The translations under genes and the position numbers were made by a program. DNA of 39,998 nucleotides from a virus, in the IMG/VR virus record IMGVR_UViG_3300035698_007449, positions 1 through 39,998 of that record. One strand, given 5' to 3'. Numbering within the stretch: the stretch's first letter is position 1; each line of letters opens with the position of its first letter. This document shows, in pieces, positions 2 to 19,622 of this stretch. The notes beneath the pieces were generated by a model, which saw only the letters and a list, made by a program, of their open reading frames with translations, made no database searches and had not been told where the DNA came from.

Positions 2-1666
2 CTTGTGGATATAGCGGCCGTATTTGGGCTCACGCTTAACCGTACCTATACCGAGATACTGAAGCTCACTGGGACTAAGCTTTTAGCCTTGGAGAAGTCA
101 TTCACTGAGGCAGTGTCTTTAGTAGAGGCTGCCATTGTCAAAACTGCGGGAATGGCAAAGACCCTTACTGAGACCTTAAATCTAGTAGAAGCTACAGTCA
201 GCATTGGCCAGACCCTAAATCGCACTTATACCGAGACACTGCACCTGGTAGACATTGCCGCTACCTTTGTCAAGACATTAAGCCAAACCTTCACGGAGAC
301 ACTAACCCTTACTGGTACTGTAGCTAGGGGTATTGAGAAAAGCGTAACTGATACTGTGTCCTTAGTGGAAGGCACTATTGTTAAGGGTTTTGGGAAGGTG
401 ATGAGTGAGGTTGTGAATATAATAGAAAGCGCAGGAGAAGCAAAAACCAAAACTATAAAGCCTGATGGAGCAGGCGACCAGACAGATGGGACTGGTGGTG
501 GTGTTGCAGCAATGGGTAATTGTGACACAGATGGTCTATCGTGGCCAAGCGCAGTTCCCGAAACTTATTATCACTGTTGGCAGTTTGAGGACTTTGGGAC
601 TGGCGGCGTAAATGTTTCCTCCATCGAAAAGATTGTGATTACTAGCGCAGAAAATGCTGCGGTACTTGTTACAGGATATTTCTCGCATTATGTCCGCTTG
701 AATGGCACTAACTATTACACTGCGACTTGGTCAACTCCTGATAATATTAAGACATTTACATCTCACACGTGGACGACTAATCCTGCAACAGGACAGGCTT
801 GGCAACAAAGCGAAATTGATGGTGCTCAGTTTGGAATAAGGTTCTACCGTACGAGTAGAACATATTGGGTTAAGTCCTATTGTCTATCTGCTGTTGTTCA
901 CTATGTAGAACCTAACGCTGTTACCAAGGCTATAGGAAAGACCATAACTGAAGCTGTGAATCTGGTTGAGGCTACCATCAGTAGGACTGTAGGTATAGTT
1001 AGGGCTTTTACAGAGATAATAAAGCTTACTGAGACTGTAGCCAAAGAATACGTCCAGCACTATTTTTATAAGACTCTAACCGAAACCATCCAACTGGCTG
1101 AGGCAGTAACTAAAGCTCTTGTAAAGGCTCCCTTTACCGAAGTCATTAAACTGACTGGTACTGTGACTAAAGCTTCTACTCTTACCCGCTTGATGACTGA
1201 GACAATAACCTTAACCGAAGCCGCTATCAGCAAGGCTACAACTAAGGTTCTTACAGAGATACTCCAATTAACCGATACGTTTTCTAAGCTCCTCCAGGCT
1301 GTTAGAACGCTCACTGAAACTATCACACTTACCGATAGTGCGAGCCGAGCGTTTGAGAAAGCACTTACCGAGGTTATAGCGCTCTCAGATTCGGTAAGCA
1401 AAAGTCTCGCCAAGACTTTTAGCGAGGTGATGTCTCTCACCGATAGCATAGTGCTTGACCTTTTGAGGGCAAGGGACCTCACTGTCAAGGTATTCACCGC
1501 GCAATATAGGAAGGTAGCTGTCTTCACCGGGCAATACCGGAAGATAGTAGCGTTCACTGCACAGTACAGAAAGCTGGTAGTGTTTACAGCTCAATACAGA
1601 AAGATAAAAACCTTGACAGGTTACTTCAGAAAGCTCAAAATTTTTACACATGGAGGTAGCAAATAA
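2..1666 (+). CDS. Repeat-built tail fibre/appendage protein, 5' end outside window
   Basis: The reading frame is open at the left edge, so the true start lies upstream. Numbering from the first possible start (GTG at 5), I count sixteen copies of a short motif of the type (L/F)TE(T/I)(L/I)xL(T/V)(E/D/G): seven before and nine after an inserted domain at about residues 147-304. The insert is rich in Trp, Tyr and Thr and looks like a beta-sandwich (WTTNPATGQAWQQSEIDG region), a type common in phage appendages. The last 60 residues are six ten-residue repeats resembling VFTAQYRK. This layout fits an elongated adhesin or tail fibre, and it is followed by other tail-like genes. Receptor binding is inferred; no catalytic motif was seen. 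Confidence 0.7.
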   Translation, partial: LVDIAAVFGLTLNRTYTEILKLTGTKLLALEKSFTEAVSLVEAAIVKTAGMAKTLTETLNLVEATVSIGQTLNRTYTETLHLVDIAATFVKTLSQTFTETLTLTGTVARGIEKSVTDTVSLVEGTIVKGFGKVMSEVVNIIESAGEAKTKTIKPDGAGDQTDGTGGGVAAMGNCDTDGLSWPSAVPETYYHCWQFEDFGTGGVNVSSIEKIVITSAENAAVLVTGYFSHYVRLNGTNYYTATWSTPDNIKTFTSHTWTTNPATGQAWQQSEIDGAQFGIRFYRTSRTYWVKSYCLSAVVHYVEPNAVTKAIGKTITEAVNLVEATISRTVGIVRAFTEIIKLTETVAKEYVQHYFYKTLTETIQLAEAVTKALVKAPFTEVIKLTGTVTKASTLTRLMTETITLTEAAISKATTKVLTEILQLTDTFSKLLQAVRTLTETITLTDSASRAFEKALTEVIALSDSVSKSLAKTFSEVMSLTDSIVLDLLRARDLTVKVFTAQYRKVAVFTGQYRKIVAFTAQYRKLVVFTAQYRKIKTLTGYFRKLKIFTHGGSK

Positions 1667-6248: not shown

Positions 6249-6685
6249 TGGACACTTCAGAGACTTATATCAAGATGTCGAATTGCCCTGAGATACAGGC
6301 TATGGCGTTTAGGGTACATGTTAAGTTCAATTATTACGCAGGGCCGAGGTCGAACAAAATATATTATGGCGGCATTGACACAATCGAAACAAACTATATC
6401 TGGCTTCCCCGTCAAGACCAGTTGCAGGAGATGGTATCTACTACAGATGGTTGGTTGGCGGATTTCAGAGCCTTTTTCTATGAGTTCGATGACTACGGCA
6501 CTTTCGATATTCCACAATGGGCGCTTCGCAAGAGCGTGGGCCGCGAGTTGCGTGGATATGATAACATCAGATTCACGTCAAAAGACCAACTTTTACTTGC
6601 CTACCTGTTGAAGGAAAAGTATAACAAAGCCTGGGACGGAGAATCCTGGGTTGCGGAGGTCAAGGACTCGGTAGGGGCCAAGTAG
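6248..6685 (+). CDS. Hypothetical phage protein
   Basis: The ATG at 6248 overlaps the previous TGA; an in-frame TTG at 6245 is less likely. The 145-residue product has aromatic-rich strands followed by helices, with WLPRQDQLQEMV near residues 52-63. Small phage proteins with a similar 'W-P-x-x-D-Q-L' pattern exist, but I cannot name the family. It is the last gene before the integrase promoter. Confidence 0.6.
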   Translation: MDTSETYIKMSNCPEIQAMAFRVHVKFNYYAGPRSNKIYYGGIDTIETNYIWLPRQDQLQEMVSTTDGWLADFRAFFYEFDDYGTFDIPQWALRKSVGRELRGYDNIRFTSKDQLLLAYLLKEKYNKAWDGESWVAEVKDSVGAK

Positions 6686-6853: not shown

Positions 6854-7705
6854 ATGCGTGGGACTATAGATGCTATCAGTGAAGCCGAGGCAGCGGCGGT
6901 ACTTCAAGAGTATTTCCAATACCGCCTTGAACGCTGTCAACTGAGTCGGAGCACTCTGGACAAATATCATCACTGCCTCAAGACCTATCAGAATTGGCTT
7001 GCTGGTGAGGTAATTACGGAGAAGTCAGCCTTGGGCTTCTTACTTTATCTAGAGCAGGAAGGATTCACTCCAACCACTTGTCGCTGTTACTACCATGCGT
7101 TAAAGCCATTCCTGGCCTACCTTGGGATGCCATTGCAGAAGCAGTTTAAGAGAGAGCATAAGCAGCCAACATACCACAAACCGAGCGAAGTAAAGGCGAT
7201 TCTACACGCAATTGAACAGCGACACGATAATTGGGATAAACTCAAAGCCCGGGATACTTTGATTGTCTTGACATTTGCCTACACGGGGATACGCAGGGGT
7301 GAATTATTAGGTTTACGGGTTCGTGACCTTAACTACCATAACCATATGCTGAAGGTCAAAGGCAAGGGTGACAAAGAGAGAGCCATACCGATTGCCGATG
7401 CCTTGTATGAGCCACTGCGGAGGTACACAAAACGGCTACAGCCGGGGGATAGATTGTTCCCGATAGAGCCGAGGCGGGTATGGAGCATTATCAGTAGGTA
7501 TGCTAATGAGGCAGGGATAGACGACTTCCACCCTCATAGTTTTAGACATTACTTTGCCACTCAGTTAGTAGAGAGCGGAGAGTCATTGAGGGTAGTGCAG
7601 GAGCTTCTAGGCCATGCTGATATTTCGACCACGGCGATATATTTAGACGTTGCACCGATGCACCTAACGAGTGCGGTGAGTAAGCTGCCCTCAATTGTTG
7701 ATTGA
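6854..7705 (+). CDS. int: Tyrosine recombinase (phage integrase)
   Basis: This 283-residue protein would recombine phage and host attachment sites. An N-terminal SAM-like core-binding domain covers about residues 10-100. The catalytic domain shows the expected residues: R147 in TGIRRGE, K171 in the KGKGDKER beta-hairpin, H228 and R231 in HSFRH, H254 in LGHADIS, and the nucleophile Y263 in TAIYLD. I chose ATG 6854, with GAGGT six bases before it. The frame stays open back to an ATA at 6797, but an ATA start is improbable. The protein looks intact. No attachment site or excisionase could be identified nearby. Confidence 0.95.
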   Translation: MRGTIDAISEAEAAAVLQEYFQYRLERCQLSRSTLDKYHHCLKTYQNWLAGEVITEKSALGFLLYLEQEGFTPTTCRCYYHALKPFLAYLGMPLQKQFKREHKQPTYHKPSEVKAILHAIEQRHDNWDKLKARDTLIVLTFAYTGIRRGELLGLRVRDLNYHNHMLKVKGKGDKERAIPIADALYEPLRRYTKRLQPGDRLFPIEPRRVWSIISRYANEAGIDDFHPHSFRHYFATQLVESGESLRVVQELLGHADISTTAIYLDVAPMHLTSAVSKLPSIVD

Positions 7706-7741: not shown

Positions 7742-7939
7742 ATGAAGAACATTATTTTACGATGCGCAATATATGATTGTTATTGGAATCTAGGTAGTCA
7801 CTATCGCAAAGGTGGGAATTGCTCCGCTAAGAAAGTAACGCTGAATCTTGATTATTCCCAATGTTCACGATATATAGAAACGGGAGAGGCACAAGTAAAA
7901 TTCGCTCAGGCAGCATTTAGAAACAAGACTAGTCTATAG
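7742..7939 (+). CDS. Four-cysteine small protein, DUF1540-like pattern
   Basis: This 65-residue protein has AAGGAG seven bases before its ATG. Cysteines at 8, 13, 27 and 40 lie in an arrangement (C-x4-C, then a single Cys after a Gly/Asn turn, then a final Cys) that resembles the DUF1540 metal-binding family. It follows the integrase directly and probably shares its transcript. Function is unknown; metal binding is inferred from spacing only. Confidence 0.55.
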   Translation: MKNIILRCAIYDCYWNLGSHYRKGGNCSAKKVTLNLDYSQCSRYIETGEAQVKFAQAAFRNKTSL

Positions 7940-7957
7940 GCAAACAGTAACGGAATT

Positions 7958-8281
7958 ATGAGCGAAGCTTTCCAATGTGACCGCTGCAAGGGCTACTTCG
8001 ACCAGAGAATGAGGACTGAGCTCAAAGTCGAAGATGGCAAGTTCATCATGGTCTTTAGTTTCCTACGGTCATTGAGCGAGGAGGAAGTTGCCGTTTATCA
8101 ACAGCGACAACAGAGCGATGCTGTATCGCAGTTCTTTGGGAGTGATACACCGAAATATCAGCACCAGGACTTATGTGAGCCTTGCCAGAAAGAGTTGATT
8201 TACCAGGGGTTAATGCAGATTATCAAAGAGGCTAAGGGGATTAACCACTGGGATAAGGTGTTGAAGGACATTCAAAAGTAG
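7958..8281 (+). CDS. Zinc-ribbon hypothetical protein
   Basis: This protein of 107 residues has CDRC at 7-10 and CEPC near 73-76, so the two cysteine pairs are far apart. A helical Gln-rich stretch separates them. The leader contains a 25-base segment nearly identical to one before 17355. No clear ribosome binding site precedes the ATG. Function is unknown. Confidence 0.6.
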   Translation: MSEAFQCDRCKGYFDQRMRTELKVEDGKFIMVFSFLRSLSEEEVAVYQQRQQSDAVSQFFGSDTPKYQHQDLCEPCQKELIYQGLMQIIKEAKGINHWDKVLKDIQK

Positions 8282-9842: not shown

Positions 9843-10487
9843 ATGGGAGGCGGCAGATACTATCCTATCACACTGCCAGATGGGACCCACGTTGAGTTCC
9901 CATCTGTGACTACTGTACTGTCAGTCCTTGACCGTAGGGCGTTGAATAACTGGCGAGTCAAGCATGGGAAAGAAGAGTCTGATGCTATTATGGAGGATAC
10001 GGGCAATGTGGGTAGCCAGACTCACGCGATAATCGAGCGAATTATCAAGGGCGGCTTTCTTTCCGATGGTGAATGGGGTGCCCTTGATCCACGAGTTAAA
10101 AGTGCGGTTCGTGCCTGGATACGCTGGAAACAGGAAGTCAACTTCAAGCCAAGACATGCTGAAATGACTGTCTACTCTCTCAAGTACGGCTATGCCGGCA
10201 CACTAGATGCTGCTGGCACAGTGAAGCCTCGCTGCCCGGTGATCTGTGATTGGAAAACCTCGTCTGCTATCTACGAGGACAGCAACTTCCCGCAACTGTG
10301 TGCTTACAAGATGGCATATTTGGAGATGTTTCCGAGACGGAAGGTTGGTGACCTGTATGTGGTACGGTTAGACAAGGCTACAGGCATACCCGAGCCGAGG
10401 CTTATAGATGAGCATGATTACTGGTGGAGATTCTTTCTAGCAGCACTTAATTTGTTCAAAATAAAACAGGAGATAAGGAGGGACTAA
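9843..10487 (+). CDS. PD-(D/E)XK exonuclease (RecB/Cas4-like)
   Basis: This protein of 214 residues starts right after the previous stop. The nuclease core is visible: GSQTH with H61, E107 in RHAEMTVYS, D122 in YAGTLDA, D136-x-K138 in ICDWKTS, and QLCAYKMAY (Q151, Y155). This is the RecB-family arrangement found in phage recombination exonucleases, which resect DNA ends to leave single strands. The next gene encodes a candidate annealing protein, so the two probably form a Red-like pair. The family is clear; the substrate is inferred. Confidence 0.8.
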   Translation: MGGGRYYPITLPDGTHVEFPSVTTVLSVLDRRALNNWRVKHGKEESDAIMEDTGNVGSQTHAIIERIIKGGFLSDGEWGALDPRVKSAVRAWIRWKQEVNFKPRHAEMTVYSLKYGYAGTLDAAGTVKPRCPVICDWKTSSAIYEDSNFPQLCAYKMAYLEMFPRRKVGDLYVVRLDKATGIPEPRLIDEHDYWWRFFLAALNLFKIKQEIRRD

Positions 10488-11492
10488 GTGACACAGCAGA
10501 CAAAGGCAGTAGCAACCACAAGCAAGGCCGTAGGGAAAGCGCCGCGGCCACTACCGGAGAAATACTCATACCTACAGGAAATCAGAGACAAGAAAGAAGA
10601 GGTCGAGTGGATTTGGCGTAGCATTATGACCGAGGGTGTGGACTTTGGCACCATCCCAGGAACGCCCAAGCCAACGCTATACAAGAGTGGTGCTGAAATG
10701 CTGCGGAGTTTCTATAACCACAGCATCAACTTCGAGATTGATGATACCGGCACAGACCGAGAAAGGGGACTCTTCTTCTTCACGGTGAGGGCCAGCGGTT
10801 CCCGAATCGAGCCAAAGACAGGCGTAGAGACATACTTCGGTAATCTAGGTGTTGGTCATTGCAACTCACTGGAGTCCAAGTATCGTTTCCGCTGGGTGAC
10901 GAAGGACCAACTACCGCCGGATGTAGCTAAGGCTGACAAACCCTGGGAAGTATGGGCTAACAGGCATGGGCCAGCTACCGTCAAGAGTAAGTTCGGTAAA
11001 GGTGGTAAGTCATTTAATCTCTTCCGCATTGACAATGACATACCGCATGATCTAGCCAACACTATCCTCAAGATGGCTAAGAAGCGCTGCTTTATAGACT
11101 TCGAGCTAACTGTGACTGGCGCATCGCGTATCTTCCTAGTTGAAGATGACCTTGAAGGTGGCAAGACACCGGAGGTAGGCGAAGTAGTTGAGGAGATGAC
11201 CGGCGAGGTATTGCCAAGGGAGGTTGCTAAGGAAATTGCTGAACCAGCCAAGACACTAAGCGATGAAGATGACAAGTTCAAGGCAGCGGTGGTCGCGCAG
11301 TTGAGTGATGAAGATAAGAAGTTCAGGGAAATAGTAGCTAGTCACATGAAGACACTGGGCTGGACTAGCCCGAAGGAACGAGAGGAATATCTGACTCGCA
11401 ATTTCCCGAATTGCCACAAACTCGGTGATTTGTCCATGGCCCAGAGGAGCGCGCTGCTTGACCAATTGATAACCTTGGTGGAGATGAAGTAA
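10488..11492 (+). CDS. Candidate single-strand annealing/recombination protein
   Basis: This is 334 residues from a GTG at 10488 with AAGGAGGGA upstream. Residues 52-72 contain DFGTIPGTPKPTLYKSGAE and residues about 191-216 contain LKMAKKRCFIDFELTVTGAS. I have seen this pair of blocks in phage proteins encoded next to exonucleases and described as recombinases. A basic fold with an acidic C-terminal tail, as here, suits an annealing protein. Adjacency to the PD-(D/E)XK exonuclease is the main functional argument. The exact superfamily (RecT, Rad52 or ERF type) cannot be settled by eye. Confidence 0.6.
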   Translation: MTQQTKAVATTSKAVGKAPRPLPEKYSYLQEIRDKKEEVEWIWRSIMTEGVDFGTIPGTPKPTLYKSGAEMLRSFYNHSINFEIDDTGTDRERGLFFFTVRASGSRIEPKTGVETYFGNLGVGHCNSLESKYRFRWVTKDQLPPDVAKADKPWEVWANRHGPATVKSKFGKGGKSFNLFRIDNDIPHDLANTILKMAKKRCFIDFELTVTGASRIFLVEDDLEGGKTPEVGEVVEEMTGEVLPREVAKEIAEPAKTLSDEDDKFKAAVVAQLSDEDKKFREIVASHMKTLGWTSPKEREEYLTRNFPNCHKLGDLSMAQRSALLDQLITLVEMK

Positions 11493-11683
11493 TGGCGGAA
11501 ACAGTAGTAGTTAAGCCTAAAGCACAGTATGCCGTGGGTGATGTGTCCTGGTTTAGAATCTGTCGGGAGTGCGGATTTAAGCAGTCCGAGGACTGGGATC
11601 TCAATGATGTGTGCCAGAATTGCGGCGAGGCAGTGATATTGTCAATGCCGCAAAATAGTGGCTACGAAGACATTGAACTTTAA
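11492..11683 (+). CDS. Zinc-ribbon protein
   Basis: This 63-residue protein starts inside the stop of the previous gene (TAATG). CREC at 24-27 and CQNC at 41-44 form a classic rubredoxin-like zinc ribbon. It closes the recombination cluster and may help bind single-stranded DNA, but no function is shown. Confidence 0.65.
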   Translation: MAETVVVKPKAQYAVGDVSWFRICRECGFKQSEDWDLNDVCQNCGEAVILSMPQNSGYEDIEL

Positions 11684-12023
11684 CACGCTTGCTCGGTGGA
11701 ATTGCCATCCGCAGTACCTTGGTGAAGACGTCCACCATGTGAGAAAGAATGTAGCAAGCACGCCCGTAAGAGTAATACCAGCGAGTCTTTGTGACTATGA
11801 CCTGGGGATAGGGTAACGGACACGGTGACGAAACTGCAAAGCCGAGCAAGGCCAGCCAACAGAAGGCTAAGCGTCTTTGAGGCTGGTGATAGCGTCAGGT
11901 GGGTGGGTCGCCTGAAACATGGTGGCCGACCTGCCTGGCAAACCGCAGCCCTGCTTGGTGACCCCTCAGTGTTACGATGCTGGGGACTAGCCAAGCAGGG
12001 CATGACATGAAAGGAGGGAAACA
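11684..12023 (+). other. Gene-poor, hairpin-rich interval; possible structured RNA
   Basis: No convincing gene lies here. The best plus-strand frame (GTG 11825 to 12010, 61 codons) has no ribosome binding site. Several inverted repeats could fold in plus-strand RNA: GCTTGCT/AGCAAGC (11687-11693 with 11753-11759) enclosing GGTGGA/TCCACC (11695-11700 with 11731-11736); CCAGCC/GGCTGG (11852-11857 with 11881-11886); GTCAGG/CCTGGC (11894-11899 with 11934-11939, one G-U pair) enclosing GGTCG/CGACC; and a ten-base-pair hairpin at 11949-12000. This may be a structured leader or noncoding RNA, or a decayed gene. Confidence 0.35.
11949..12000 (+). other. Strong hairpin before a TTG-started gene
   Basis: CCCTGCTTGG at 11949-11958 is perfectly complementary to CCAAGCAGGG at 11991-12000, with an inner CCCC/GGGG pairing. 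The right arm is followed by AAAGGAGG and a TTG start at 12024. There is no U run, so it is not a standard terminator; a translational or processing role is possible. The right arm recurs alone at 12472-12481. Confidence 0.6.
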
Positions 12024-12200
12024 TTGGAAACACTGAAGATTCGGCTTAGCCTTGGCGGAGACAAGTGGCAAGCGCAGATAGGAGAGAGTTTACTGGACGG
12101 CGCTACTGGACATGGAGATACTCCCTTAAATGCCATTAGAGACCTATGTAACGCTATTGCCGCTAGCCCGTATGAAATGCAGACATTTACCCTAAAGTAG
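12024..12200 (+). CDS. HicB-like small protein, TTG start
   Basis: This 58-residue frame opens at TTG 12024 with AAAGGAGGG eight to ten bases upstream. The sequence runs as strand-strand-strand-helix (LKIRLSLGGDKWQAQIGESLL, then HGDTPLNAIRDLCNAIA). That is the general pattern of the HicB-type ferredoxin-like fold, including the G-D-T-P before the helix. No HicA-type toxin gene is adjacent, so this is likely a stand-alone phage relative. The resemblance is by eye only. Confidence 0.6.
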   Translation: METLKIRLSLGGDKWQAQIGESLLDGATGHGDTPLNAIRDLCNAIAASPYEMQTFTLK

Positions 12201-12228
12201 ATAGGTAAGACAACTCAAGGAGGACAAG

Positions 12229-12471
12229 ATGAAAACAACAGCAACATGCCCAAAATGCGGGACGCATATCCATAGCCTTGTCAAGAGTTACATCTCAACT
12301 CAAGAAGTGACGGTGAGGCACCCCAAAGGGAATAAGTTTGTATTGGCGGAGAAGCTTATCTGCGAAACACCCGAAATTGACTACGTTTCCGCATATTACC
12401 GATGCCCTCTGTGCGAAGAGGCAATATGCAGTTCTGATGAGATTGCATTGGAATTTCTCAAAGGGGATTAG
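12229..12471 (+). CDS. Zinc-ribbon paralogue 1
   Basis: This 80-residue protein has AAGGAGGACAAG before the ATG. CPKC at 7-10 and CPLC near 59-62, with another Cys at 67, form a zinc-binding core around a beta-rich middle. It is a close copy of the gene at 12839; the ends are conserved and the central residues 35-52 have diverged. Probably a small nucleic-acid or protein adaptor; function unknown. Confidence 0.75.
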   Translation: MKTTATCPKCGTHIHSLVKSYISTQEVTVRHPKGNKFVLAEKLICETPEIDYVSAYYRCPLCEEAICSSDEIALEFLKGD

Positions 12472-12498
12472 CCAAGCAGGGTACATGAAAGGAGAGAT

Positions 12499-12810
12499 AT
12501 GACAAAGGAGAGAGAAGAATTATTGCTGACAGAACCAGGGGCAAGAGAGGCACTGGCAAACTCGCCTCAAAGACAGAATCCCTTTATTGACAACTGGGAG
12601 ATAATAGCCGAAGCCCTGCTAGACAAAATCCTCAAACCAGAATGGAAGGATAAGCCTGATAGTGAAGGATGGTGGTGGTGGCAAGATGGGAAATATACAG
12701 AGATTCGCAGATTTACAGTAGAAGACTTAAAGCCAGCCAAGTGGAGGGTGACATTTGGTCAGTGGAGAGGCAAATGGTCTAAAGCCATAGTCCCTGAGAT
12801 AGAAGGGTAG
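12499..12810 (+). CDS. Trp-rich hypothetical protein
   Basis: This is 103 residues, with AAAGGAGAG six bases ahead of the ATG. Acidic N-terminal helices are followed by a tryptophan-rich segment (SEGWWWWQDGKYTEIRRF near residues 55-72) that looks like a small beta domain. It sits between the two zinc-ribbon paralogues. The family is not recognised. Confidence 0.65.
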   Translation: MTKEREELLLTEPGAREALANSPQRQNPFIDNWEIIAEALLDKILKPEWKDKPDSEGWWWWQDGKYTEIRRFTVEDLKPAKWRVTFGQWRGKWSKAIVPEIEG

Positions 12811-12838
12811 CCAACCAGAGTAAAGGAAGGAGGACAAG

Positions 12839-13081
12839 ATGAAAACAACAGCAACATGCCCAAAATGCGGGGAGCAGATTGCCAGCCTTGAAAAGTCTTA
12901 CATCTCAATTCAAGAAGTGACGGTGAGGCACATTAAAGGGGATGAGTGGGTATTTGGAGAGTATCTCGTCTTTGGTGAGGATGAATCTGATGTGGATTTC
13001 GCATATTACCGATGCCCTCTGTGCAAACAGGGTGTATGCCATTCTGATAAGCAAGCACTGGAATTCCTCAAAGGGGAGTAG
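12839..13081 (+). CDS. Zinc-ribbon paralogue 2
   Basis: This is 80 residues and the second copy of the tandem pair. CPKC at 7-10 and CPLC near 60-63 are kept, as are the flanking SYIS.QEVTVRH and ALEFLKG segments. The middle is different from copy 1, which argues that both are under selection rather than one decaying. It lies just upstream of the replication initiator. Confidence 0.75.
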   Translation: MKTTATCPKCGEQIASLEKSYISIQEVTVRHIKGDEWVFGEYLVFGEDESDVDFAYYRCPLCKQGVCHSDKQALEFLKGE

Positions 13082-13121
13082 CCGAGCAGCGCTAAAGGAA
13101 TTTGGTAAGCAAGGATAATGG

Positions 13122-13865
13122 ATGGCGAATCCGCAGACTGAAAATGGGCACATTGATATTGCCAACGAAATCGCCGAAAGGCTATGTCGGCTTAACCTCA
13201 GCCCGTATCAGTGGCGTGTCCTGTGGGCTATCTGGCGAAAGACCTATGGCTGGCATAAGAAGGGTGACAAGGTGGCACAGACACAATTAGTGGAATTGAC
13301 CGGCTTGGCAAAGCCACATCTGAACCGAGCTTTGCATCAGCTAGTTGCTGCCAATCTAGTCATTAAGTTGGGTAAATATCTTGCCTTCCAAAAAGACTAC
13401 GACCATTGGAAAGTTACCAGTAGAGATAACTTACCTCAAAAGTTACCAGCAGAGGTAACCGAAGTTACCAGTAGAGGTAACAAAAAGTTACCAGTAGAGG
13501 TAACCAGTACCACAAAAGAAAAGAAAGAAACTATACAAAAGAAACTATATAAGTCCGTTTTCGATTTTTGGAATCAGCAAAATATCATAGTCCACCGAAG
13601 GTTAACCGATGACGTACGCAACGTGATTGTCCGTACTCTACGGAGCTACAGCGTTGAGGAAGTCTGCAAAGCCATCGCCAATTACGCTGAGATTGTAAAC
13701 GGTGAGGAGTATTACTGGACTCATAAATGGACATTGTTTGAGTTTTTGAAGCGTGGAGTCGAGCGCTTCATGGATGGTGATGTAGCGAGGGCAAACTTCA
13801 AAGAGAAGAAAGATGCCAAAGCTGGAGCAAGGCCAGTACAGCGTATCTACACGGAACCGGACTGA
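13122..13865 (+). CDS. Phage O-like replication initiator
   Basis: This protein has 247 residues. The N-terminal 95 residues match the phage replication protein O family: NPQTENGHIDIANEIAERL, LSPYQWRVLWAIWRKTYGW, then a winged-helix continuation (QTQLVELTGLAKPHLNRAL). Such proteins bind iterons and recruit the helicase loader. Residues about 98-128 are encoded by four iteron-like repeats, so the origin lies inside the gene as in lambda. The C-terminal half is helical and may contact the loader encoded next. The ribosome binding site is weak (AAGGAT). Confidence 0.85.
   Translation: MANPQTENGHIDIANEIAERLCRLNLSPYQWRVLWAIWRKTYGWHKKGDKVAQTQLVELTGLAKPHLNRALHQLVAANLVIKLGKYLAFQKDYDHWKVTSRDNLPQKLPAEVTEVTSRGNKKLPVEVTSTTKEKKETIQKKLYKSVFDFWNQQNIIVHRRLTDDVRNVIVRTLRSYSVEEVCKAIANYAEIVNGEEYYWTHKWTLFEFLKRGVERFMDGDVARANFKEKKDAKAGARPVQRIYTEPD
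13413..13504 (+). repeat. Four iterons: probable replication origin
   Basis: The 18-base sequence GTTACCAGTAGAGGTAAC, an imperfect palindrome with GTTACC/GGTAAC arms, occurs at 13413-13430 (one change), 13442-13459 (one change), 13464-13481 and 13487-13504. The start-to-start spacings are 29, 22 and 23 bases, about two to three helix turns. They lie within the O-like gene and are followed by a purine-rich, AT-rich tract, as in lambda-type origins. Confidence 0.8.
13513..13552 (+). other. AT-rich tract, probable DNA unwinding element
   Basis: An A-rich, almost all-purine stretch with few C or G bases begins about nine bases after the last iteron, ending in CTATATAAG. In lambda the same position holds the region that melts first. 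The role is inferred by analogy. Confidence 0.5.
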
Positions 13866-16791: not shown

Positions 16792-17080
16792 CAAATTATG
16801 GAAGAGCGTGGAAAGAAAGCTGGCCAAGATACTAGGTGGTAAGCGAGTGCCGGTCAACAGCACTGATGGTATCAAGTGCGATATTACTTGTCCCGTCTGG
16901 AGTGTTGAGGTTAAGGAACGGAAGCGATTGCCCGTACTCTTGAAGGATACGGTAGCACAGGCAAGGCGTAACTGCGAAGATGGCAAGCTGGCGATCGCCG
17001 TCCTCCATGAAAAGGGAAAGCCCCACGATTCGGATATAGTAGCGGTTCAGTTATCAGATTGGATTAGTTGGTATGGATAA
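16784..17080 (+). CDS. PD-(D/E)XK nuclease, resolvase-like
   Basis: This 98-residue protein has E10 in the first helix, D33 in IKCDIT, and E42-x-K44 in WSVEVKERKRLP, the order of a PD-(D/E)XK active site. A helix with QARRN and a strand AIAVLHEK follow. Size and order resemble Holliday-junction resolvase-like phage nucleases of the Hjc style. A role in resolving replication or recombination intermediates before packaging is likely but inferred. Confidence 0.65.
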   Translation: MADKLWKSVERKLAKILGGKRVPVNSTDGIKCDITCPVWSVEVKERKRLPVLLKDTVAQARRNCEDGKLAIAVLHEKGKPHDSDIVAVQLSDWISWYG

Positions 17081-17110
17081 GCCTTATCGAGATAGCCGAA
17101 GGAGGGATAT

Positions 17111-17314
17111 ATGAAAGATAAAATCAGTATAAGATGGCAGATAGTATTGATTGCATCCCTTGTGTTCTACGGATGTCTAGGTATTGCAGGTCTTTTCTAT
17201 GGATATGAGAGCTTTGGGCAAAGACTTATCCATCTACTGCAAACTATATGTGTCACCATTTGGGCGGCATATATTATATTTAAGGTATTACTCAAGAGTG
17301 ACCAATCGGTATAG
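17111..17314 (+). CDS. Two-helix small membrane protein
   Basis: This is 67 residues; AAGGAGGG precedes the ATG. Two hydrophobic segments at about 10-29 and 41-60 are separated by a short polar loop with GYESFGQR. No cleavable signal was seen. A holin or superinfection-exclusion role is possible, but its early position does not decide. Confidence 0.55.
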   Translation: MKDKISIRWQIVLIASLVFYGCLGIAGLFYGYESFGQRLIHLLQTICVTIWAAYIIFKVLLKSDQSV

Positions 17315-17334
17315 GCAAACAGTAATGGAGTTAT
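17310..17334 (+). repeat. Second copy of a 25-base intergenic segment (first at 7935-7959)
   Basis: The 25 bases from TATAGG to TTAT at 17310-17334 match 7935-7959 at 23 positions; the core GGCAAACAGTAA is identical. In both places the segment begins in the end of one gene and leads toward a small gene. It may be a protein or RNA site, or a trace of recombination. Confidence 0.6.
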
Positions 17335-17354
17335 CATGTTAAAGGCTAGGTGAA

Positions 17355-18079: not shown

Positions 18080-18214
18080 TTACTTATCCGCTTTTGTCTC
18101 CTCTTTCGCCCATTGGCATCCGCACTTTCGGCACCAGTAGTCGTTAGTAGTGATGCGATAGCGTATTTCCGTACTACCGCAGTCAGGACACTTTGGTTTG
18201 TGTTTCTGTTCCAT
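18080..18214 (-). CDS. Zinc-ribbon protein, last gene of minus operon
   Basis: This is a 44-residue protein. CPDCG at 9-13 and CRKCG at 28-32 form a compact zinc ribbon of the transposase/TFIIS style. GAGGAGGT precedes the ATG, and the start shares a base with the stop of the upstream gene (TAATG). Function unknown. Confidence 0.7.
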   Translation of the reverse strand: MEQKHKPKCPDCGSTEIRYRITTNDYWCRKCGCQWAKEETKADK

Positions 18215-18399
18215 TAGTGTACCTCCTCTTGTATTTTACCATCTGCTTTGGCAAGAGCCTTTCTCCCCTTTTCCCTTGCAAGTGCACTATTACGGTCTTT
18301 CAAAATATCTTGTAATGCCTTATACATATCCCTGAAGGTTTCCTCGCTATATTTTAATGGTCTTGTCGGTATTGGCTTGCTGCTCTCAGTATATTTCAT
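18214..18399 (-). CDS. Small helical basic protein
   Basis: Three ATGs stand in a row after GAGGAG; I take the third, giving 61 residues (the first would be 18405). The product is almost all helix and Lys/Arg/Glu-rich, with DMYKALQDILKDRNSALAREK. The start lies in the end of the upstream gene, near a hairpin at 18413-18440. Function unknown. Confidence 0.6.
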   Translation of the reverse strand: MKYTESSKPIPTRPLKYSEETFRDMYKALQDILKDRNSALAREKGRKALAKADGKIQEEVH

Positions 18400-18601
18400 C
18401 ATCATCTCCTCTGCCTGGCCGAGTAGTCCCGGAGTCAGGCTTATTCTTTGGGATATACCCATCAGGATACCATCTTTTGCAACATGTGCATGGGTCTGGA
18501 GCACTAAGAGCATAATCTGTATATTCAGTCAATTTTAGGGATTCGTTATACTCTCTAAGCTCTTCGTAAAATTTGCAGTTCTTTGACTTGCAAGCTGGCA
18601 T
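18386..18601 (-). CDS. Cysteine-containing small protein
   Basis: This is 71 residues. C4 and C9 in the N-terminal part and C38, C40, C41 in DPCTCCKRW suggest a metal site. GAGGAGAA lies about ten bases before the start. Its last twenty codons read straight through the hairpin element at 18413-18440, unlike the other copies of the element, where the upstream gene stops inside it. That may mean the element arrived in, or altered, the 3' end of this gene. Confidence 0.55.
   Translation of the reverse strand: MPACKSKNCKFYEELREYNESLKLTEYTDYALSAPDPCTCCKRWYPDGYIPKNKPDSGTTRPGRGDDDEIY
18413..18440 (-). other. Intercistronic hairpin, copy A
   Basis: On the minus-strand RNA, outer arms GCCUG/CAGGC enclose inner arms CCGGG/CUCGG, which pair with one G-U. 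On the plus strand the same position would be an A-C mismatch, so minus-strand RNA is the better-folded form. AGAGGAG and a triple ATG follow directly. Confidence 0.6.
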
Positions 18602-18618
18602 CTCTATTATTCTCCTCT

Positions 18619-18642
18619 GCCTGTCCTATCTAGGCGTCAGGC
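18619..18642 (-). other. Intercistronic hairpin, copy B
   Basis: The outer arms GCCUG/CAGGC are as in copies A and C; the inner arms are CCU/AGG with a tetraloop. The UGA in the left arm is the stop of the upstream gene. AGAGGAG follows the right arm. Confidence 0.6.
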
Positions 18643-18885
18643 TTGGCTATTCAGTATTTGGTATGCTCTGTCTAGTATATGACATGCTGCCCTCCGTTCG
18701 CCTTCTGAAATCTCATTGTTTTTTGCCATTGAATCAAATACCAATGCTATAAAACCTAACTCAAATCCCTGCCTTCTAGGTATAACGGTGCGCAACCGCT
18801 TCAGCCCATCCTTAATCTCGTCTACCAGAATTTGATTAGGTACAGAACCAAGATACTGCTTCTTGAAGTAAATATCATTTGTCAT
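18637..18885 (-). CDS. Helical hypothetical protein
   Basis: The start is chosen at the third of three tandem ATGs (82 residues); the first is at 18891. The product is largely helical, with LVDEIKDGLKRL and a C-terminal amphipathic helix (ERRAACHILDRAYQIL). Hairpin copy C lies just upstream and its stop lies in hairpin copy B. No known motif was seen. Confidence 0.6.
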   Translation of the reverse strand: MTNDIYFKKQYLGSVPNQILVDEIKDGLKRLRTVIPRRQGFELGFIALVFDSMAKNNEISEGERRAACHILDRAYQILNSQA

Positions 18886-18898
18886 CATCATCTCTTCT

Positions 18899-18926
18899 GC
18901 CTGTCTCGGTGATCCGAGAGTCAGGC
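18899..18926 (-). other. Intercistronic hairpin, copy C
   Basis: Outer arms GCCUG/CAGGC; inner arms CUCGG/CCGAG, perfectly paired around a four-base loop. The UGA stop of the upstream gene is in the left arm, and AGAAGAG plus a triple ATG follow the right arm. Confidence 0.65.
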
Positions 18927-19166
18927 TATAATCTCCTGTAATGATTGTATTCTAGCTACTGCGCCTTCTGTGTCTAGTTTCAATATATCCATTCCGACAG
19001 GGCAGAACCTGGCAAAGCTAAACTGGTGGCTTGCACACTCTTTTGGTCGCCGTGGATAGATTTCGCAGGTTGCTAGGTTGCCTTTCATAGTTAGGTGTGG
19101 GCAAGGATTGGGTACTGATAGCGGTGGCATTGTCCTGCAACATTCGCCACATCTTAGGCAGTACAT
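18921..19166 (-). CDS. CxxCxxCC-type metal-cluster protein (YkgJ-like)
   Basis: I start at ATG 19166 (81 residues), which overlaps the end of the upstream gene; a longer frame from 19265 would run through that gene. The sequence CLRCGECCRTMP at 3-14 followed by NPCPHLTMKGNLATCEIYPRRPKECASHQF is the signature of the YkgJ/CxxCxxCC family of Fe- or Zn-cluster proteins. The family's chemistry is not firmly known. It is an unusual passenger in a phage and may be a host-benefit gene. Confidence 0.75.
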   Translation of the reverse strand: MYCLRCGECCRTMPPLSVPNPCPHLTMKGNLATCEIYPRRPKECASHQFSFARFCPVGMDILKLDTEGAVARIQSLQEIIA

Positions 19167-19344
19167 CTCATTCCCCTTTTGCCTCGTAGCAGATGTACTT
19201 GAATCTCCGCCCGTCATAGCGTGTCTTAGGCGTACCATATTTGGGGTAGTAATGTAGATTGCCACATTCGGAGCATAAATGCTGGAACATACAGTATAGT
19301 TTTGTCGGGTTGCGCCTAAATGGTATCGGTCTTACTTTCATCAT
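19159..19344 (-). CDS. Cysteine-bearing small protein
   Basis: This is 61 residues from the first of two tandem ATGs, with GAGAGGAG upstream. CSECG at 24-28, then C52 and C59, suggest a loose zinc site around aromatic residues (HYYPKYGTPKTRYDGRRFKY). The final codons overlap the next start by eight bases, implying coupling to the YkgJ-like gene. Function unknown. Confidence 0.6.
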
Positions 19345-19390: not shown

Positions 19391-19561
19391 CTAGGCAGTG
19401 TATCGTACAACCATGTCCTTTGTCTGATAATGCGTCCCCATGACTGCGTTGTAGGTTTCCACTTGGTCATTATTACCTTCAAGATAAGGGTTAAAGAAAG
19501 CATGTTCGTGTAATGTGTTTTTGCCCTTTGGCTTTACCCACGCCCATTGTCTAATCTTCAT
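19391..19561 (-). CDS. First gene of the minus operon, unknown
   Basis: This is 56 residues; AGGAGGT lies seven bases before the ATG, and a strong minus-strand promoter lies 33 bases upstream. The product has an aromatic, basic start (MKIRQWAWVKPKGKNTLHEHAFF) and no cysteine. The family is not recognised. Confidence 0.6.
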   Translation of the reverse strand: MKIRQWAWVKPKGKNTLHEHAFFNPYLEGNNDQVETYNAVMGTHYQTKDMVVRYTA

Positions 19562-19593: not shown

Positions 19594-19622
19594 ACAATAG
19601 CACACACCCACACCCTTGTCAA
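19594..19622 (-). promoter_or_regulatory. Promoter of the minus operon
   Basis: Read on the minus strand, TTGACA (19622-19617), a 17-base spacer and TATTGT (19599-19594) with TG one base before it. It matches the other promoters of this genome closely. Confidence 0.75.

Follow-up and report, generated by a model that had tools for sequence, protein, structure and literature searches.

It has been known since 2011 that short repeats accompany the starts of phage genes, but a mechanism has been lacking (PMC3203893). In cluster K mycobacteriophages, the repeats termed SAS and ESAS lie directly upstream of the starts of a subset of unrelated and mostly small genes (PMC3203893), and repeats of this type also occur in cluster EF Microbacterium phages (PMC7302621). 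SAS is a 13-bp sequence, GGGATAGGAGCCC, that is found at the ribosome binding site (RBS) with up to two mismatches, and ESAS is a 17-bp imperfect inverted repeat with a spacer of 4-13 bp, located just upstream of the RBS repeat; its authors concluded that the changes in the arms do not support RNA pairing (PMC3203893). Here, we describe a hairpin element from a metagenomic phage for which SAS/ESAS is the closest known system, both in its position before starts and in its distribution over small, unrelated genes. The SAS 13-mer had 0 matches in the window, by which we mean the whole stretch of 39,998 nucleotides that was analyzed. While the ESAS arms are 17 bp long and change in a non-compensatory manner, the arms of the element comprise 11 bp, include a 2-nt bulge and show clear compensation, and we therefore do not regard it as an ESAS. 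ESAS, the best studied case, gave no indication of RNA structure, and the element is a comparable repeat with clear RNA covariation, with a fixed geometry and an RBS-adjacent place in three distant phages. Covariation together with fixed geometry and place makes an RNA-level action of such repeats directly testable, using reporters and compensatory mutants. A description of the element was not found in the open-access literature.

In the window, a virus record of 40 kb, the majority of genes point rightward. The elements are located among seven consecutive small ORFs with leftward orientation (19561 to 18080, minus strand), which adjoin the exonuclease and terminase genes on their upstream side. 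A sigma-70-type promoter of this operon, TTGACA-N17-TATTGT, was recognized by sequence at 19594-19622 (minus strand). All genes that follow are on the minus strand as well. The first (19391-19561) encodes 56 aa and has no assigned function. It is followed by a 58-aa gene with cysteines and without a Pfam match (19168-19344), an 81-aa gene with a weak match to a CxxCxxCC domain below the curated cut-off (18921-19166), an 84-aa gene without a family (18637-18891), a 71-aa cysteine-rich gene (18386-18601), a gene of approximately 62 aa (18214-18405) and finally a 44-aa zinc-ribbon gene (18080-18214), which is not preceded by a hairpin. The Pfam signal among these small proteins is sparse, consisting of one zinc ribbon marginally over the cut-off and the weak CxxCxxCC match, and those that were compared with PHROG gave no match.

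The initial annotation had placed three copies of the hairpin in this operon, and all three coordinates proved to be exact. The copies were identified by pattern match and fold. W3 (18899-18926, minus strand; GCCTGACTCTCGGATCACCGAGACAGGC) reads GCCUG-AC-UCUCGG-AUCA-CCGAGA-CAGGC and precedes the 84-aa gene. W2 (18619-18642, minus strand; GCCTGACGCCTAGATAGGACAGGC) has a short inner stem, CCU/AGG, and precedes the 71-aa gene. W1 (18413-18440, minus strand; GCCTGACTCCGGGACTACTCGGCCAGGC) reads GCCUG-ACU-CCGGG-ACUA-CUCGG-C-CAGGC, includes a G-U pair and precedes the ~62-aa gene. As had been claimed, an RBS follows each right arm. Directly 3' of W3 lies the Shine-Dalgarno sequence (SD) AGAAGAG (18892-18898), followed by AUGAUGAUG from 18891; W2 is followed by AGAGGAG (18612-18618) with the start AUG at 18601, and W1 by AGAGGAG (18406-18412) and then AUGAUGAUG from 18405, all on the minus strand. 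The pattern GCCTGACN{10,20}CAGGC matched 3 times in the window, compared to 0.08 matches expected from shuffles, and no shuffle reached 3. Each window copy folds alone into the proposed hairpin. The G-U pair was said to exist only on the minus-strand RNA, and indeed the hairpin is the minimum-energy fold of W1 on the minus strand (z -1.29), whereas on the plus strand it is not the best fold (z 0.03). We also recovered the different small hairpin that had been noted at a fourth junction, in front of the 58-aa gene: the sequence GGCTAGATTAGCC at minus 19367-19355, forming the hairpin GGCUAGAUUAGCC and followed by AAGAGAGGAGAUGAUG. In the relative G001 described below, the identical 13-mer is found immediately before one of the elements (7177-7165, minus strand), and this small hairpin, GGCTAGATTAGCC(AAG), constitutes a second shared junction module.

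Further copies were sought, and five more were found in two other phages. A scan of IMG/VR with GCCTGACN{8,26}CAGGCAGARGAG returned 14 contigs, among them G001 (IMGVR_UViG_3300005613_000283), which carries three copies at 6535-6562, 6887-6914 and 7135-7162 (minus strand). A second IMG/VR scan yielded G002 (IMGVR_UViG_3300014613_001371) with a copy at 1212-1239 (minus strand). At the next junction of G002 lies a second copy, G2b (1016-1043), reading CUCAG-UC-UCCAGC-CUAA-GCUGGA-CUGAG directly before AGAGGGAGG; it keeps the geometry but differs in the outer arms (CUCAG/CUGAG) and the bulge (UC). In total, eight elements are thus present in three phages (three in the window, three in G001 and two in G002). 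In both relatives, a TTGACA-N17-TATNNT promoter precedes a small leftward operon at the equivalent place, immediately upstream of the genes for terminase and portal. Compared to the portal protein of the window, that of G001 shows 27% and that of G002 17% identity. In BLASTN comparisons with the window, the top match in G001 was the element plus SD (53 bp, 83%), and element plus SD was the sole match of note in G002. An exact 28-mer occurs twice in G001 and once in G002. Searches of IMG/VR and GTDB genomes with the terminase, the portal and the small genes revealed no close relatives. The G001/G002 core pattern was absent from 84,980 prokaryote species, deposited phages and plasmids contained no copies and only weak chance matches, and what was matched in broad pattern scans was chance or coding sequence only.

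The eight elements share a common fold, in which a 5-bp lower stem is followed by a 2-nt bulge on the 5' side, by an inner stem that reaches 6 bp at most and by a loop of 4 nt (ACUA, AUCA, UAGA, AGAU or CUAA). The lower stem is GCCUG/CAGGC and the bulge is AC; usually an added U-A pair extends the inner stem to 6 bp and leaves the 2-nt bulge, and where this next pair is lost a 3x1 loop results. The outer arm and the AC bulge are identical in sequence in seven of the eight copies, G2b being the exception. The SD follows 0-6 nt past the hairpin and the AUG 7-19 nt past the stem. For 61-nt pieces, fold energies between -10.7 and -19.4 kcal/mol were predicted. When all eight elements are aligned, 96.9% of the cells pair. 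The initial annotation held that the inner arms change in sequence and yet stay paired, which is the case in the window copies, and across the alignment two-sided compensatory changes are found in 7 of the 11 pairs. This exceeds chance: we counted 10 double-changed cells compared to 3.0 in shuffled alignments, and the covariation score was 0.539 versus 0.188 when shuffled and at most 0.080 in slid registers. Without G2b and duplicates, three pairs and five double-changed cells remained (1.4 shuffled), and without G2b the score was 0.309 (0.146 shuffled). The sample is small, comprising eight copies from three phages with shared ancestry. RNAalifold, applied to the flanked alignment with no structure given, returned the same 11 pairs. 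Pair-preserving two-sided changes above chance are what is expected of a structured cis-RNA, and the element displays them. Hence, the element is a structured cis-RNA of the sense strand, which points to a genuine control element on the mRNA, and the suggestion of a modular RNA element at gene junctions is borne out by the compensatory changes and by the copies in other phages. Two outcomes that the initial annotation had named as refuting it, a lack of further copies and a lack of covariation beyond chance, thus did not occur.

A covariance model recovered all eight copies with E values from 4e-9 to 1e-4. In the three genomes searched, matches at E<0.01 were confined to these operons, and the only additional match arose because one palindromic copy was also hit on its reverse strand. 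The elements scored 28-44.6 bits, compared to a best score of 20.8 bits in 825 kb of unrelated viral sequence. G2b had first been spotted by eye, and the geometry was therefore scanned separately. In 2.86 Mb of fetched sequence (both strands), we counted 10 occurrences of the exact all-Watson-Crick geometry; this background was partly fetched by hairpin-like patterns, so that its rate is overestimated if anything. Six of these occurrences are elements, each placed immediately in front of an SD and start, while none of the other four is followed by an SD and start. A looser geometry scan gave chance matches elsewhere in the genomes, and only the strict geometry discriminates. Since G2b was missed by a model from whose training it had been left out, the membership of this copy rests on its geometry and position.

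We further compared the element with other RNA hairpins. The coat operator of MS2/R17 is a hairpin with an ANYA loop and one bulged A, which is placed two pairs below that loop, and the start codon is inside the hairpin. The element is likewise a bulged hairpin at an RBS with the bulge on the 5' side, and the loops ACUA and AUCA fit ANYA. Unlike in MS2, the bulge comprises 2 nt and is separated from the loop by six pairs, and the whole hairpin is positioned 5' of the SD; with its start codon 7-19 nt 3' of the stem, it is not a coat operator of the MS2 type. In Rfam 15, no family matched the window at the gathering threshold, and an E-value search gave sub-threshold matches only. The nearest family was L31-Coriobacteria (RF03128), with 18.3 and 20.1 bits against a gathering score of 33. 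It resembles the element in a CCUGG/CCAGG stem-loop with AGGAG at similar spacing, but has no lower stem or bulge and a different loop size. We rejected this leader, as the match is sub-threshold and no downstream protein resembled L31 on inspection. A looser analogue is provided by the recurrent, stable intercistronic CUUCGG hairpins of T4-like and phiEco32-like phages, which are thought to stabilize mRNA or aid translation (PMC8948821). These are defined by their loop, whereas the conserved part of the element is the lower stem and bulge, and CTTCGG is absent from all elements, which places them outside this class. The window as such contains CTTCGG 33 times on both strands compared to 13.6 expected, mostly on the minus strand, perhaps due to plus-strand codon use (CCGAAG).

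The proteins encoded downstream of the elements show no homology between phages, except for a zinc-ribbon pair (W_18214 and G002_1000; 37% identity, E 7e-5), in which only the G002 gene is preceded by the hairpin. The ~62-aa gene (18214-18405) has no homologue among the leftward genes of G001 and G002. The position of the upstream stop codon also differs between copies. As had been observed for two copies, UGA lies in the left arm of W2 (18639-18637) and W3 (18923-18921), where the upstream ORFs end at 18637 and 18921. In G2b the stop (UAA) is in the loop, in G1b and G2a it lies 4 or 7 nt upstream of the element, in G1c approximately 60 nt upstream, and in W1 and G1a it is reached only past the start of the next gene; W1 is located inside the 3' end of the 71-aa gene, which reads through it. 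Because stop positions vary and the downstream genes are unrelated, the element travels independently of genes. This is INDEPENDENCE from gene and frame, and the element moves apart from the genes downstream of it. What stays constant in the three highly diverged phages is the geometry and the place just before the SD, whichever gene family and reading frame are involved. Neither SD nor AUG is part of the stem, both being located entirely on the 3' side of the hairpin. In an ensemble calculation, opening the region from SD to AUG costs 0.8-5.5 kcal/mol, and deletion of the hairpin is predicted to shift this cost by at most 1.2 kcal/mol. Scrambling the left arm is predicted to make the site less accessible in 7/8 copies; it is thus possible that the hairpin keeps the site clear or that it acts as a handle beside it.

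Literal conservation of sequence beside a covarying stem is the usual signature of recognition by a factor other than the partner strand. We favor an RNA-binding protein because GCCUGAC...CAGGC is literal in seven copies and the inner stem covaries freely; judged from the sequences, a site for such a protein appears likelier than any single alternative. Our leading proposal, which we make tentatively and with somewhat less than half of our confidence, is a portable mRNA hairpin 5' of SDs that is read by a trans-acting RNA-binding protein co-regulating small genes. The hairpin would be made on the leftward polycistronic mRNA, directly 5' of the SDs of several small genes that are unrelated to one another. 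A protein of phage or host would recognize the AC bulge and the lower stem GCCUG/CAGGC, the inner stem may serve as a scaffold free of sequence demands, and the bound protein would control access of the 30S subunit to the adjacent SD, so that the small genes may be co-regulated as a post-transcriptional regulon. That outer arm and bulge are conserved letter by letter despite portal identities as low as those given above argues for recognition by a protein. The deviating arms and bulge of G2b count against it, as recognition of the sequence would not be strict, and a gene for the binding protein was not recognizable beside the element in all three phages. Sequence conservation could also stem from recent exchange of the element. 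A wider form of the proposal is possible but doubtful: a regulon of dsDNA phages, in which one protein reads the bulged GCCUGAC/CAGGC cassette at the 5' edges of RBSs and controls an operon of unrelated small, perhaps host-directed genes, and in which the hairpin is retained or exchanged by phages that otherwise have almost no DNA in common.

A structure acting in cis without any partner, which insulates the RBS from upstream RNA, limits read-through coupling or stabilizes cleaved mRNA, ranks next and seems rather unlikely to us, even though the stable fold and the open SD, including the loss of accessibility upon left-arm scrambling, are in agreement with it. Structured standby regions can alter initiation more than 100-fold (PMC3936740), and structure right after a stop codon reduces coupling (PMC12548453). 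The main evidence for this reading is G2b, which keeps the geometry without the sequence. It leaves unexplained, however, why GCCUGAC/CAGGC is identical in seven copies from otherwise dissimilar phages while the inner stem is variable.

The initial annotation had suggested that the stem could be melted by a ribosome that terminates on the upstream gene, making the next start available. The UGA in the left arms of W2 and W3, the UAA in the loop of G2b and the upstream ribosomes that read through W1 and G1a would fit such a switch, as would the hairpin of phage f1 VII/IX, a looser analogue that ends close to the second start, on its upstream side, and shows coupling (PMC12548453). That hairpin is a single site tied to the end of the upstream gene, whereas the element occupies many sites with varying stops. 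Melting of the stem cannot unmask SD or AUG, because both are outside of it; the predicted effect of hairpin deletion is accordingly small, and the stop is in an arm in only 2/8 copies. This part of the annotation was not upheld and we consider the switch improbable, coupling via a structured standby site being conceivable.

The element may alternatively be a mobile or recombinogenic palindromic DNA linker at gene boundaries that was spread by duplication and exchange and has no role as RNA. Near-identical DNA in diverged phages with similarity that stops at element and SD, the exact 28-mer repeat, insertion independent of frame and the second short repeat GGCTAGATTAGCC common to the window and G001 would all be accounted for. 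A linker of this kind would not be expected to undergo pair-preserving double changes, to contain a G-U pair that forms on the sense strand only or to hold a fixed orientation and place directly before the SD, and neither the 84,980 genome species (G001/G002 core) nor plasmids or deposited phages contain copies; we give it a slim chance. Conservation of an encoded peptide tail, PDSxTTRxGR, has a negligible probability and was rejected, since the frame P-D-S-W/G-T-T-R-T/P-G is open in W1, G1a and G1c but contains a stop in W2 and G1b, the gene upstream of W3 ends at the UGA in another frame, and the changes preserve pairing and not amino acids.

Two further candidates were set aside. An anti-SD switch, pairing CUCC(U) of the left arm with GGAG, is possible in most copies with only 3-5 bp, and we did not adopt it because the competing hairpin is much stronger and is transcribed first. 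Processing by RNase III was judged unlikely from the stem length of 11 bp with a bulge.

Other features were observed in these genomes. G001 encodes a terminase of 840 aa (10052-12574) with an apparent intein-like insertion near Walker A (GGERGGK / ALYIDTPIPTPSGW ... THN / SKT), which is absent from the window and G002. A YGGARTTAT repeat is present at gene junctions of the window (7935-7959, 17310-17345) and of G001 (1390-1419) and is a candidate start-associated sequence without an obvious hairpin. At gene ends, TGGTATGGATAAGCCTTAT occurs in the window (17069-17095) and in G001 (768-794), combining a WYG-stop tail with a small inverted repeat. Within a coding region of the window (13409-13505), a unit with an inverted repeat (GTTACC...GGTAAC), AAAAGTTACCAGYAGAGGTAACC, is present as four near-identical copies in tandem. 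Finally, a plus-strand junction repeat, GGGGANTAGCC(A/G)AGCAG with an in-line TAG, is located at 11982-12019, 12463-12497 and 13073-13091 of the window. The first two copies are followed by the SD-like sequence AAAGGAG, and two of the copies are part of a gene that is duplicated in tandem (12217-12479 and 12827-13089) with 78% identity.
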